Shown in pieces: positions 25,302-32,856 of a stretch of DNA of 64,000 nucleotides (within the stretch, counting starts at the first letter, position 1; each line of letters opens with the position of its first letter). The translations under genes and the position numbers were made by a program. The notes beneath the pieces were generated by a model. The model did no database searches. It was not told where the DNA came from and was given only the letters and a program-made list of their open reading frames with translations. Source of the stretch: Lachnospiraceae bacterium (GTDB lineage: Bacteria > Bacillota > Clostridia > Lachnospirales > Lachnospiraceae); contig JALERL010000037.1 in the NCBI GenBank assembly GCA_022764465.1, positions 1 through 64,000 on the forward strand, given 5' to 3'.

Positions 25302-26240
25302 TTATTCACTTTCTTCCGGAACTTCTCCCCGCAGGATCTCTATAAACTTTCCTACCTCTGCCCATGCACGCTTAGACTCCGGCATCAATAGCATTGCCAT
25401 CTGAAAGACATGGAACATCCCTTCGTACACACTCAGCCGTACCTTTACCCCTGCTTCCTTTGCCTTTTTTGCTACCGTCAGGGAATCACTGAGTAACATC
25501 TCATACGATCCAACCTGTATGAGCATTGGCGGAAAGTCATCAAAGCTGCCAAATGCCGGTGAAATATACGGCTCTTTTGGATTACATGTTCCCACATAAT
25601 CCCGGTTATAGACCAGACTGTCTCTCGTTCCACCAAACAAAGGGTCTTTGTCGAAGTTCGTATCATACGAAGAACCACTTGATGTCAGATCTGTCCATGG
25701 CGACATTGCAACCACACCGCATGGAAGTTCATAATCATGGTCACGCAGATACATCGTAAGTGCCAGTGCCAGGCCACCGCCTGCTGAATCTCCCGCCACG
25801 ATGATCTGGTCTGCACGGTATCCCTTTTTGATCAGCCAGAAATATGCCGTCACTGCATCCTCTAATGCTGCCGGATACGGATGCTCCGGTGCGACACGGT
25901 AATCGATCGTCAGCACACTGATGCCCTTTCCGACCTCACTGTAGAGTCCCGCAAAGCTGCGGTACCCATTGTGCAGTGTTCCGACGTATGCACCACCATG
26001 AAGCTGCAGAACCACCTTGCTGCGATCCGGATTCTCTTTTAATTCCAGATACTCCATCGTGAACTTTTCTAAATGAATGATATAGCGTGAAAAACACTCC
26101 GGACATTTCCATGGCGGCTCTTTTAAGTTCCTGCGGAGTTCTCCGCTTTTTATTTTTTTTCCTATCAGATTATCATTTGCAGCCCTCGCGATCAGATCCC
26201 GGATCACACGGCCGCGGACACTTGTTTCATTTTCCGTCAT
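25302..26240 (-). CDS. Alpha/beta hydrolase (hormone-sensitive-lipase type esterase)
   Basis: The 312-residue protein has the HSL-family oxyanion motif LQLHGGAYVGT, the nucleophile elbow AGDSAGGGLAL, a DPLF-like loop, and the C-terminal acid (SYEMLLSDS region) and histidine (GMFHVFQM). It should hydrolyse short acyl esters in the cytoplasm. TGGAGTAACAA precedes the ATG. It is the last gene of a three-gene unit with a DUF6320 protein (gap 11 bases) and a condensation-domain acyltransferase, which suggests a role in making or trimming an acylated product. Confidence 0.92.
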   Translation of the reverse strand: MTENETSVRGRVIRDLIARAANDNLIGKKIKSGELRRNLKEPPWKCPECFSRYIIHLEKFTMEYLELKENPDRSKVVLQLHGGAYVGTLHNGYRSFAGLYSEVGKGISVLTIDYRVAPEHPYPAALEDAVTAYFWLIKKGYRADQIIVAGDSAGGGLALALTMYLRDHDYELPCGVVAMSPWTDLTSSGSSYDTNFDKDPLFGGTRDSLVYNRDYVGTCNPKEPYISPAFGSFDDFPPMLIQVGSYEMLLSDSLTVAKKAKEAGVKVRLSVYEGMFHVFQMAMLLMPESKRAWAEVGKFIEILRGEVPEESE

Positions 26241-26251
26241 TTGTTACTCCA

Positions 26252-26917
26252 TTATCTTACATGAAATCTTCTCTGTAACTCGATCCTTGCCCTCCGGTCT
26301 CCGATGATCAGTGTTCCGAGGAACAAAAAGACAGAGATTGCAAATGTTATGAGACTAAGCATCGGCTTTGTAATAATGCCTACACCCCAGAGAATTAAGG
26401 TAACACCTGCGAGCACGATCATACCGATCTGAAACAGCAGATAACTCTGCCAGTTTCTATGATTGATCAGCATTAAAATCACAATACTCAGATCAATAAG
26501 CAGGATTCCGCTTGGGATCACATAATTGACCGACCATCCGCGGTAGCCGATGACAAAATCGATCAGTATGACCATCGCGACCCCACAAATTGTAAGCACC
26601 ATCAGCTTTAGCCGGTATCCGGCGTCATCTAAGACAGCAAAGCGCAGGATCAGATACAGGTAAAACAGCGATGCAACCACGATCGCACTCCACCAGATCC
26701 CATGGTACATCTCATAATTCAACGCAATTAAAAACACACTGACTGCAAGTGTTAAAAACAGATAAATCCGTCCTGCCAGCATCAGCCTTCTTGTCTTGAT
26801 CCGGACATCCGGATAGGTATCTTTTCCGTCCCCTTCCGGCTCGATCACGCAATGACACAACGGACATACATGTGTTTCGTCTTTTATTTCTATCTTACAT
26901 TGTCTGCATTTACTCAT
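26252..26917 (-). CDS. DUF6320-type zinc-ribbon membrane protein
   Basis: The product (221 residues from ATG 26917; an in-frame ATG at 26929 would add four) has an N-terminal zinc ribbon, CRQCKIEI...CPLCHCVIEP, then six or seven membrane helices (about 45-205) and a basic tail. This matches, from memory, DUF6320, a family of unknown function. The start region overlaps the stop of the upstream acyltransferase gene, and the hydrolase follows 11 bases later, so the three are tightly linked. A membrane anchor or partner for the acyltransferase is plausible. Confidence 0.8.
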   Translation of the reverse strand: MSKCRQCKIEIKDETHVCPLCHCVIEPEGDGKDTYPDVRIKTRRLMLAGRIYLFLTLAVSVFLIALNYEMYHGIWWSAIVVASLFYLYLILRFAVLDDAGYRLKLMVLTICGVAMVILIDFVIGYRGWSVNYVIPSGILLIDLSIVILMLINHRNWQSYLLFQIGMIVLAGVTLILWGVGIITKPMLSLITFAISVFLFLGTLIIGDRRARIELQRRFHVR

Positions 26918-28334
26918 AATATACACCATTACTTTCTATTTCTACATCAATGCCATCCTCTGCCAGTCTGCGGAAGAATCCACGCTGTACGGACGTATCC
27001 CGCAGCACGGAGCTGAAGGAAAAGACCAGTGTATCCTGATACGAACAGATCGTTCCCTTTAGGTTCTGTCCCTTTGACATGGCAAGAAAGGCATAAAACA
27101 TTTTTACATACGGCTGATATTCTTCACGGATCACCTGATTGCCGATATTTGTGACCGTTGAAGTATTTGCCAGTGCCGCTGAGGTATAGACATAGCGGAT
27201 CGCCAGATTTTTCAAAACAAGCGGCACCGCTCTTGCGATCAGAAGCTTTTCATTCGAAACATTATAGGAAAACAGTTCCTCTAAATGTTCCTTTGTGATC
27301 TGGCTACGCAGGCTGTCCTTTACGATCTCCACAACCTCTGCAAAGGTATAATCCTCCTTTGTCGGTCCAAACTCCGCTGATACCATGGTAAAAAAGTTCT
27401 TCGTTGTAACCGAGTTAAAGTATGGACGAAGGTTCACCGGCACAGCCACACGGATCGGACGTCTGCCCGGGATCCCATGCATGCATTCTAAAAAGACACT
27501 CCAGACGAATGCAGATACCAGATATTCATTGATACTGACACCATAACTGTGACAGACTTTCTTTAACTGTGGAATGTTCATATAGCCATGCATGACACCG
27601 AACTCACCCTTGCGCAGCCGCTCGCCGCGCAGCAGATATGCCTTCTGTGTTTTATAGCCCTTCGCATGACTGTGCTTGTAGTTCCGTAAAAAGCTGTCCT
27701 CCCGGTTTAAGGAGGTATCACTGCTTAAGTGATCCCCTAACTTCTCCCTGAGTTCCGGGTGTACCAGACGCAGATACTGATAAGTCAGTTCCTTTAAAAA
27801 ATTCGTGCCGCCCATACCATCCGTTAAGACATGGAACACCTCTAAGTTTATTCTGCACCCATAATACGTCACACGAAACAGATAGCTGTTATTCTTATTC
27901 TGTACAATGTACTGACACGGATAGGTGTTTTCTTCCCGCACCCGTGGCGCAGGCTTTCCATTCTCTTCAAAATAATACCAGAAGATTCCCTGCCGCAGTC
28001 TTAAGTTAAATCCATCGAACTTCGGAAGCACCATATCGAGTGCCTGCTGTAACGGTTCTCTTTGCACCTCTTCGTTTAAGGTAACCGAGATCCGGTATAC
28101 ATTACTCATGGATTCTCCGGCGATCACCGGGAACAGATGTGCGGTATTATCTAACTTATCCCAGCGGATATCCATACCCCTGCGCTTTCTCTCTTTTTCC
28201 TTCTGAAGCTTACGCTCTTCTTTCTTTTTTTGCTTTCTGGTCTGACTTTCTATCTTTTTTTCTTCCTTCACTCTCTGCTTTTGCAGCTTTTTTTCCTCTT
28301 TTTCCATATTAAACCATATCTTTCTATCTATCAT
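26910..28334 (-). CDS. Condensation-domain / alcohol acetyltransferase-like protein
   Basis: The 474-residue protein has a K/E-rich, probably coiled N-terminal segment (about 11-53), then a chloramphenicol-acetyltransferase-like condensation fold. The catalytic HxxxDG is FHVLTDGMGG (H168, D172, G173), and PIRVAVPVNLRPYFNSVTTK matches the conserved latch region. Such proteins join an acyl-CoA or thioester to an alcohol or amine (AATase, PapA, NRPS C domains). It is the first gene of an operon with DUF6320 and an esterase. The start is uncertain: ATG 28334 or 28307, neither with a strong ribosome binding site. The substrate is unknown. Confidence 0.82.
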   Translation of the reverse strand: MIDRKIWFNMEKEEKKLQKQRVKEEKKIESQTRKQKKKEERKLQKEKERKRRGMDIRWDKLDNTAHLFPVIAGESMSNVYRISVTLNEEVQREPLQQALDMVLPKFDGFNLRLRQGIFWYYFEENGKPAPRVREENTYPCQYIVQNKNNSYLFRVTYYGCRINLEVFHVLTDGMGGTNFLKELTYQYLRLVHPELREKLGDHLSSDTSLNREDSFLRNYKHSHAKGYKTQKAYLLRGERLRKGEFGVMHGYMNIPQLKKVCHSYGVSINEYLVSAFVWSVFLECMHGIPGRRPIRVAVPVNLRPYFNSVTTKNFFTMVSAEFGPTKEDYTFAEVVEIVKDSLRSQITKEHLEELFSYNVSNEKLLIARAVPLVLKNLAIRYVYTSAALANTSTVTNIGNQVIREEYQPYVKMFYAFLAMSKGQNLKGTICSYQDTLVFSFSSVLRDTSVQRGFFRRLAEDGIDVEIESNGVYYE

Positions 28335-28450
28335 TCATGCAAAATAGCATGTAAAACAGTCCCCGCTTTTTCAAAAAGATATTATAGCCGAGATTGATGC
28401 AAAATACAATCTTGCTTTTTTCCTTTGTTCCATGTAAAATTTTCTTGGCA

Positions 28451-28472
28451 TCTGGTATATCCAGTGACCAGA
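28451..28472 (+). promoter_or_regulatory. Possible autoregulatory operator of the GntR gene
   Basis: The inverted repeat TCTGGT (28451-28456) / ACCAGA (28467-28472) lies about 25 bases upstream of the GntR start, in the position of an autoregulatory site. FadR-type regulators commonly bind TGGT/ACCA half sites, although usually with closer spacing. Confidence 0.45.
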
Positions 28473-28495: not shown

Positions 28496-29200
28496 ATGGA
28501 ATTTAAAAAATTAAATGCTCCGACCTTAAAGGAGCTTTTTGTTACAGAACTTGAAAATATGATATTGTCCGGAAAGTTAGAGATCGGAAGCAAGCTTCCA
28601 TCCGAGCGCGAACTGGCTACCTCGATGCAGGTCAGCCGCGCGGTCGTAAATTCCGGTATTGCAGAAATGGAGGCCAAGGGCTTTCTAGTTGTAAAACCGC
28701 GTGTTGGTACCTTTGTTGAGGATTACCGCAGAAACGGTTCGTTAAGCACCCTGATGTCCATTATGAATTACAATGGCGGCATGCTCCGCAAAAATGAGAT
28801 CCGTTCGATTTTAGAAGTACGCATAGTATTAGACCGCCTTGCCGTAGAACTGGTATGTAAGGATTCTTCCGACGAAGAGATTGCAACGCTTGCCACTTAT
28901 GTCGATGCACTCCGTGCATGTGAAGATTCCGCACAGGCGGCAGAGCTTGCCTTCACCTTCCATCACGAGCTTGGATTTATTTCCGGCAACACCTTGCTCC
29001 CACTCTTTTTTGTATCCTTCCGCAATCCGGTCATCAGTCTGTGGATCCGCTTCTGTAACCATTATGGTATTGAAGCACTTTATGACAATACGGCAACACT
29101 TTATGAGCACATAAAAAAGCGGGATTCAAAAAATGCGATTGCATTTATTGAATCCTCGCTTGGAGATACGATCAACGGAAGCAGAGAAATCTACCGGTAA
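28496..29200 (+). CDS. GntR/FadR-family transcriptional regulator
   Basis: The 234-residue protein has an N-terminal winged helix (LKELFVTELENMILSGKLEI, GSKLPSERELATSMQVSRAV, KPRVGTFVED) and a C-terminal helical FCD domain (about 95-225) with the ligand-binding pattern of FadR-type regulators (RSILEVRIVLDRLAVEL; FHHELGFISGN). Such repressors respond to organic acids or similar metabolites. ATG 28496 has GGAGGG upstream; earlier ATGs have none and would pass through the possible operator. It lies divergent from the acyltransferase operon and convergent with the amino-acid ABC genes; it may regulate the former. Confidence 0.9.
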   Translation: MEFKKLNAPTLKELFVTELENMILSGKLEIGSKLPSERELATSMQVSRAVVNSGIAEMEAKGFLVVKPRVGTFVEDYRRNGSLSTLMSIMNYNGGMLRKNEIRSILEVRIVLDRLAVELVCKDSSDEEIATLATYVDALRACEDSAQAAELAFTFHHELGFISGNTLLPLFFVSFRNPVISLWIRFCNHYGIEALYDNTATLYEHIKKRDSKNAIAFIESSLGDTINGSREIYR

Positions 29201-31692: not shown

Positions 31693-31708
31693 CAAAATGT
31701 GCTATTTT
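31680..31708 (+). promoter_or_regulatory. Probable promoter of the DUF4250 unit
   Basis: TTGACA (31680-31685), a 17-base spacer and TATTTT (31703-31708). The -35 box lies within the MITE-end sequence. The start codon is about 115 bases downstream. Confidence 0.5.
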
Positions 31709-31822
31709 TTTCACACAGCTACTTGTGCCATAGATGTCACAAACCGGCTGCTAAGACAAAACAACTCCGAGGATATGCCTGTAATTTTCAGGCGTAAAAT
31801 CGTCTGTGGATTGGAGATTCTT

Positions 31823-32008
31823 ATGACAAATACAAACTTACCAAATGACCCTGTGATGCTGCTTAGCTTCGTCAACACACAACTTCGTGACTTTTATTCC
31901 TCCTTAGATGACTTCTGCGGTGCCTTTCATATTGAGGCAGCTTCTCTTTGTGAAAAGCTATCAGCCATTGATTATGAATACGATGCTGCCACAAACCAGT
32001 TCCGGTAA
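31823..32008 (+). CDS. DUF4250 protein
   Basis: This 61-residue protein (NLPNDPVMLLSFVNTQLRDF, DYEYDAATNQF) matches the short DUF4250 family of unknown function, common in Firmicutes and Bacteroidetes. It is soluble and mostly helical. ATG 31823 has TTGGAG just upstream; the longer frame to 31697 would translate through the promoter region. The stop lies 11 bases before the next gene, so the two are probably one unit. Confidence 0.82.
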   Translation: MTNTNLPNDPVMLLSFVNTQLRDFYSSLDDFCGAFHIEAASLCEKLSAIDYEYDAATNQFR

Positions 32009-32019
32009 AAGAGGTTCTT

Positions 32020-32856
32020 ATGTCACTGTATGATGAATTAACGCAGTATCAGATCCTGCCAACTGCATATGAAGACTGGGCAGGGTACCGGCAGGCGGTC
32101 ACGGATTATATCCTTGCAAATACCAGCCCGGATACTACACTTGCGATTTTCGGTGCCGGACGCTGCAATGACATAGATCTTTATCGGCTGTCTACACATT
32201 TTTCTTCGATCACACTGCTCGATGCCAACCACCCTGCCATGAAGGAAGCTGCCATGCGCTATGGCTTATCGAGTGATCCGAAACTGTTCTGTAAAGAGGC
32301 AGACTTTTCCGGCATCTCACCCGAAGATTACCGCGCACTTGGTGATGAACTGACAGCTCTTTATAATGTAAGCGGAAATGAAACACGGATCGAGGTACTC
32401 GAAGACTTTATGTGCTTTAAATTAGACCGGCTCTATCGGAAAGCAGATGCCTATACCATGGATTTTGACATCAATACCTTCGACTATTCGATGGCATTTG
32501 GTGTTCACAGCCAGATCAACAACATGGCCTCGTGGATGTTTTCTGCCTTTGAAGAGAACATCCATGCGCACAGCTCTCTTGTCACCAAACGGATCCGTGC
32601 TGCCAATGACCGTATGGTTCCTAAGTTTAACACCGCGATCTTAGCTGCAACAAAAAAAGCAGCATTCTTCGGCTGTGAGCGAATAAATACTGCTTCTAAT
32701 GAGCCGGTAGAGGGCGCATACCAGTGTATCATGGATCTGAAGAATCGTGGCATCGTCACTTCACAATCCCTGACCCTCTGGCCTTTTTACCCTGCCGGCA
32801 ACCGTTATTATCAGATGCTGATCCAGTGCTGTGATCCATCCGGTATTCCCGGATAA
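32020..32856 (+). CDS. Rossmann-fold, methyltransferase-like protein of unknown function
   Basis: The 278-residue protein has a glycine-rich strand-loop at about residues 42-50 (TLAIFGAGRCNDIDL) followed by ITLLDANHPAMKEAA, the pattern of a SAM-binding methyltransferase motif I with an acidic motif II. The later region (SQINNMASWMFSAFEENIHA; LTLWPFYPAGNRYYQMLIQC) is not a known catalytic block to me. AGAGG precedes the ATG. It is paired with DUF4250. Methyltransferase activity is an inference; a nucleotide-binding protein without activity is possible. Confidence 0.75.
   Translation: MSLYDELTQYQILPTAYEDWAGYRQAVTDYILANTSPDTTLAIFGAGRCNDIDLYRLSTHFSSITLLDANHPAMKEAAMRYGLSSDPKLFCKEADFSGISPEDYRALGDELTALYNVSGNETRIEVLEDFMCFKLDRLYRKADAYTMDFDINTFDYSMAFGVHSQINNMASWMFSAFEENIHAHSSLVTKRIRAANDRMVPKFNTAILAATKKAAFFGCERINTASNEPVEGAYQCIMDLKNRGIVTSQSLTLWPFYPAGNRYYQMLIQCCDPSGIPG

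Follow-up and report, generated by a model that had tools for sequence, protein, structure and literature searches.

Analysing a window of 64,000 nucleotides from a Lachnospiraceae bacterium, by which we mean the whole stretch of DNA studied here, reveals three neighbouring minus-strand genes which, judged by their arrangement in this genome and in its relatives, form one coupled operon. They encode an O-acyltransferase of the condensation/CAT fold (T), a DUF6320 zinc-ribbon membrane protein (D) and an esterase of the HSL family (E). These proteins probably work together as a membrane-associated acylation/deacylation unit on a bulky hydrophobic alcohol, in which T is docked to D and E reverses the reaction. 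At the level of sequence a conserved unit, natural T-D fusions, two esterase recruitments and intact catalytic motifs are found.

The T gene (26910..28334, minus strand, 474 aa) is followed on the same strand by D (26252..26917, 221 aa counted from M5, six predicted TM helices) and E (25302..26240, Abhydrolase_3, 312 aa), and thus all three ORFs named in an earlier sequence-only reading are indeed present. The ORF of D already opens at 26929. Because M5 (26917) is invariant in relatives, the overlap of the D start with the T stop, which had been recognised correctly, comprises 8 bp and not 20. An overlap of this kind occurs in 65 out of 75 relatives, with a median of -8. Between D and E lie 11 bases, exactly the spacing that had been claimed.

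The conservation of this unit was studied in 200 sampled Lachnospiraceae genomes, in which the counts were not selected for T. DUF6320 is present in 109 and T in 115 of these genomes. D lies within 3 kb of T at 111 out of 117 retained T loci, while D is missing beside six, and 111 out of 113 D loci have T beside them. An HSL esterase, either E or a member of a second lineage (E2), is adjacent to 83 of the 117 T loci (71%) and none was detected at 34 (29%), therefore E is not essential. The neighbourhood survey which the sequence-only reading had suggested hence finds the triplet conserved: the three families do not occur mostly apart, and the esterase is not absent from relatives possessing the pair. 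A scan of genome contigs gives 80 close T loci, of which nearly all adjoin D and about half E, with varied flanks. Among the close T relatives without adjacent D four out of five genomes carry D elsewhere, and at four loci (L220, L232, L233 and L234) esterase and T are kept together without an adjacent D. In a class-level sample 88 out of 391 genomes and in a phylum-level sample 13 out of 300 were above the cut-off; outside the class Clostridia the order esterase (E2)-T-D is found in seven out of ten loci.

When the neighbours were clustered to see whether the loci have a further pathway enzyme in common, nothing recurrent beyond the triad appeared. Substitute hydrolases were looked for beside T-D pairs lacking E: none of the nine scanned neighbours is an HSL, and one is pectinacetylesterase-like, next to a glycosidase-like protein. 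Three of the esterase-less pairs (L173, L175, L178) have common flanks, and that of L173 has a GH120-insertion/beta-helix protein on one side and a pectinacetylesterase-like protein on the other. Two Roseburia-like genomes harbour unrelated ORFs between T and D (L015, 2675-3760; L020, 7319-8182), by eye membrane permease-like and GNAT-like proteins.

The catalytic motif of T, H168-V-L-T-D172-G173 (27816..27833, minus strand), had been read as HxxxDG and taken to mark a CAT-like acyl-transfer fold. It lies where it had been placed; H168, D172 and G173 show a conservation of 1.00 in 110 aligned relatives, and 212 out of 215 T proteins contain HxxxDG. The fold assignment agrees with an AlphaFold2 model based on the window T and 68 family sequences (pLDDT 76, pTM 0.76), whose low-confidence stretches include residues 170-174 within the active-site motif. 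Comparing this model with the PDB by Foldseek gave 240 matches at E <= 0.001; those listed are of the condensation type, with TM values of about 0.4-0.58, and include PapA5, WS/DGAT and NRPS condensation domains (E about 1e-11 to 1e-9) as well as TRI101. By its motif and its predicted two-lobed fold T is a member of the condensation/CAT-fold acyltransferase superfamily. It was the fold comparison alone that revealed these relatives, since a PDB sequence search with T or the T profile found none. The Pfam family AATase (PF07247, gathering cut-off 22) does not match the window T at E 0.1, and is just passed by the relatives L199 (27.2), L182 (22.8) and L189 (22.4). T is a single-copy gene in the genome of the window. 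Its K/R/E-rich N-terminal extension (residues 1-55, 28170..28334, minus strand), predicted to form a long helix (4-52 in the model), exists as the sequence-only reading had it, but is confined to the Roseburia/Eubacterium clade, where it is variable, and is absent elsewhere.

D matches DUF6320 (PF19845) with 194.6 bits (1.8e-57; gathering cut-off 29.9). The zinc ribbon consists of C8, C11, C22 and C25 (26855..26908, minus strand), four Cys residues which are 100% conserved in unfused close relatives. A membrane motif, D124-x3-G128-x3-W132-S133-x5-P139 (26513..26560, minus strand), is retained even when fused and divergent proteins are taken in: in a set of 85 sequences conservation is 0.95 for D, 0.93 for G, 1.00 for W, 0.96 for S and 0.99 for P, and the best conserved positions in this set are W132, P139, P40, S133, D124 and G128. 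Because of these conserved membrane positions, D may do more than anchor. In the structural model of D (pLDDT 81) six long helices follow the ribbon; a fold search with this model found no solved relative of the membrane part and zinc-finger matches only at chance level. The N- and C-termini of D probably both lie on the cytosolic side, because the number of helices is even, the C-terminal tail is positively charged and the N-terminus can be fused to T, which itself has no membrane segment.

Natural T-D fusions have a length of about 600 aa. They appear in three separate places on the T tree, on which the fused label needs four changes. In all 19 fusions examined the ribbon is absent at the junction, and the simplest reading would be that D is docked to T by its ribbon and can do without it once both are covalently joined. 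Ribbon loss does not need fusion, however, as four DUF6320 proteins of 187-191 aa (L164, L167, L174, L176) are unfused yet have no zinc ribbon. This ribbon-less group clusters with the fused L163 on the T tree.

E matches Abhydrolase_3 (PF07859) with 160 bits (8.9e-47; cut-off 25) and is of the HSL type, carrying the oxyanion HGG (residues 81-83) and GDSAG, the latter in the nucleophile elbow GDSAGG (S152; 25776..25793, minus strand), which is invariant in aligned relatives. Solved relatives of E include the HSL esterases EstD11 and E40. The nearest NCBIfam model of E is that of the GESAG HSLs (NF058651; 215.6 bits, below the cut-off of 430) and that of E2 is LipP1. By sequence both are clear members of the superfamily to which EstD11, E40 and LipP1 belong, but neither reaches the cut-offs set for the named NCBIfam subfamilies, and both are tied to a dedicated acyltransferase.

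Using the window E as query and counting matches above 250 bits as strong, 32 out of 33 strong E-type matches lie downstream of T-D in the same orientation; of these, 30 are within roughly 1 kb of where T ends, a distance that includes D. Weaker E homologues near T are found upstream of it, 12 in divergent and 11 in the same orientation, and the matches remote from T are, with few exceptions, weak. For E2 the query was taken from L189, and all 28 matches above 290 bits lie directly upstream of T, within about 60 bases of its start; the next match has 143 bits. In the esterase tree unlinked HSLs fall between the E and E2 groups, and one clade of all T-linked esterases is rejected (p-AU 0.0047, for a quick tree and a group set by linkage before tree building). 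The T tree comprises two large clades, one with all E2-linked rows and the other with nearly all E-linked rows. Taken together, gene positions and trees indicate that two separate HSL lineages were recruited to T, on different sides.

One member of the T family has been purified. Clo1313_1074 of Clostridium thermocellum (WP_003519433.1) is reported as an alcohol acetyltransferase whose gene shares an operon with that of an esterase/lipase (PMC8112048). Both cloning primers given there exactly match the two ends of the T gene of L146, which belongs to an E2-T-D operon, therefore Clo1313_1074 is a T of this family from an esterase-T-D operon. The enzyme converts acetyl-CoA and 2-phenylethanol to 2-phenylethyl acetate and is inactive on linear C2-C10 alcohols, with acetyl-CoA as the sole donor tried; 0.5 mg enzyme, 48 h and 50 C were used and D was not included (PMC8112048). 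D is consequently not needed for the basal chemistry, and because of the forcing conditions 2-phenylethanol may not be the true substrate. Clo1313_1074 shares with the window T the family, the HxxxDG motif and the kinds of operon partners, but its esterase is of the other lineage (E2) and located upstream, and this T has no charged N-terminal extension. The identities between the window and the L146 locus are 32% over 427 aa for T, 27% for D and 26% for the esterases. A DUF6320 partner is not mentioned in the passages considered from the C. thermocellum paper (PMC8112048). That no pathway of this make-up has been described, as the sequence-only reading supposed, is thus correct only in part: a family member has been assayed, whereas DUF6320 is not mentioned in the literature searched, in which most subscription journals are not covered.

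Divergently from T a GntR/FCD regulator is encoded (28496..29200, plus strand; GntR 4.4e-16, FCD 4e-11), with the ATG at 28496, preceded by GGAGGG, as the better start. The region between both genes contains the dyad-like element TGGCATCTGGTATATCCAG (28446..28464, plus strand), the probable GntR operator. The derived pattern has no other exact match in the genome of the window (86.8% complete), where matches with three mismatches are near the control level, and similar elements precede T in most other GntR-linked loci. A single-copy operator-like element common to GntR-linked relatives suggests an autoregulated local switch. This fits with GntR as a candidate local regulator of T-D-E and of itself which is present in few relatives. 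The divergent gene and its dyad had both been recognised before, but with linkage to T in only 7 out of 80 close relatives the regulator stands outside the conserved unit. Further along the window, a 278-aa ORF without Pfam match at E 0.001 (32020-32856, plus strand) is located downstream of a DUF4250 ORF on the same strand (31697-32008).

In the mechanism we propose, T would be a cytosolic CAT/condensation-fold enzyme that by means of H168 transfers the acyl group carried by CoA onto a bulky hydrophobic alcohol, at its hydroxyl. The acyl group is most likely acetyl, which is also the only donor tested in the T family. As integral membrane subunit D would dock T at the inner membrane face, by the ribbon if the proteins are separate and covalently if they are fused, and its D-x3-G-x3-WS motif might also help to present a substrate or product dissolved in the membrane. 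In the cytosol, the HSL-type esterase E would take the acyl group off and thereby set the level or clear wrong products. We infer that T and D form a complex, that the ribbon serves for docking and that E acts on the product of T, the last of these from genetic linkage. A small dedicated acyl-transfer unit had been proposed before; transferase, membrane partner and esterase do form one unit, but rather than contributing a biosynthetic step E more likely reverses or edits the product.

The best functional analogy for the triad, which is not meant as a family assignment, is the sterol acetylation-deacetylation cycle of yeast, Atf2/Say1, described as a detoxification system (PMC4076087). As proposed for the triad, an acetyltransferase acting on hydrophobic alcohols is paired with a membrane-associated deacetylase, but the yeast genes are separate and eukaryotic. 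We know of no DUF6320-like subunit in the Atf2/Say1 system.

A widespread and so far undescribed Clostridial T-DUF6320 complex and its esterase might reversibly esterify an endogenous membrane lipid or lipophilic alcohol, resulting in a tunable short-chain ester lipid. Butyroyl lipids are known from Butyrivibrio. Rather doubtful is a PapA-like acylation of envelope lipids or glycolipids, in which T would acylate a membrane glycolipid, a lipid alcohol or a polyprenol precursor that D recognises and E trims. In fold and HxxxD chemistry T resembles the PapA acyltransferases, of which PapA5 ranks among the best matches of the T model (TMt 0.58). PapA_C is matched, if weakly, by more T members than any other Pfam family (20 out of 68), and in D there is an integral membrane protein dedicated to T whose membrane motif is conserved. 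However, PapA_C (cut-off 30) does not match the window T, the best relative scanned singly reaches 19.8 bits and no scanned T passes; a polyketide synthase context was not seen at the T loci, and no recurrent glycosyltransferase or lipid-synthesis gene stands beside the triad, whose neighbours were mostly clustered, not annotated.

We consider it unlikely that the operon encodes a detoxification pair, in which T acetylates toxic aromatic or hydrophobic alcohols such as fermentation by-products, plant phenolics or antibiotics for exit, and E spares useful compounds in the manner of the yeast sterol cycle. The sole activity known for the family is the acetylation of a membrane-active alcohol, 2-phenylethanol (PMC8112048), and E2 proteins reach 181-198 bits on a chloramphenicol hydrolase model, though its cut-off is 500. 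Against this, the triad is mostly single copy and chromosomal, has very different neighbours without a consistent efflux or resistance gene, and is broadly distributed across the class Clostridia. Acylation of bile acids was also considered and is not favoured, as the triad is also found in C. thermocellum, a non-gut thermophile, and the literature search gave no lead.

Wax ester or triacylglycerol storage, with T as a divergent WS/DGAT and E as the lipase mobilising the store, seems highly improbable. T shares the fold of wax ester synthases (6chj, 7nxg) and is weakly matched by TIGR02946 (1.8e-5) and WS_DGAT_C (0.046), but the window T stays under both cut-offs (23.8 versus 309.95 and 14.2 versus 20.7), and the assayed homologue is inactive on linear alcohols up to C10, with acetyl-CoA as sole donor tried. 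Least of all do we believe in an incidental linkage of an ordinary esterase and an ordinary acetyltransferase acting on different molecules, for which the T loci without adjacent esterase speak, but against which stand the independent ties of two HSL lineages to different sides of T and the persistence of the esterase-T pairing where D is not adjacent.

The reversible acylation unit proposed here is not categorically new, since chemistry of this kind is known and an assay exists for one member. What is new is that DUF6320 accompanies the T acyltransferase as a near-obligate partner, repeatedly fused to it, and that HSL esterases were recruited to T more than once. Three genes which are otherwise annotated apart are now tied together in a set carried by many gut and soil Clostridia. 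For DUF6320, a domain which roughly every second Lachnospiraceae genome in the sample carries, this provides a functional hypothesis which is testable in a tractable organism. Should the substrate be an endogenous lipid, an ester lipid made by common gut bacteria would have been missed so far.
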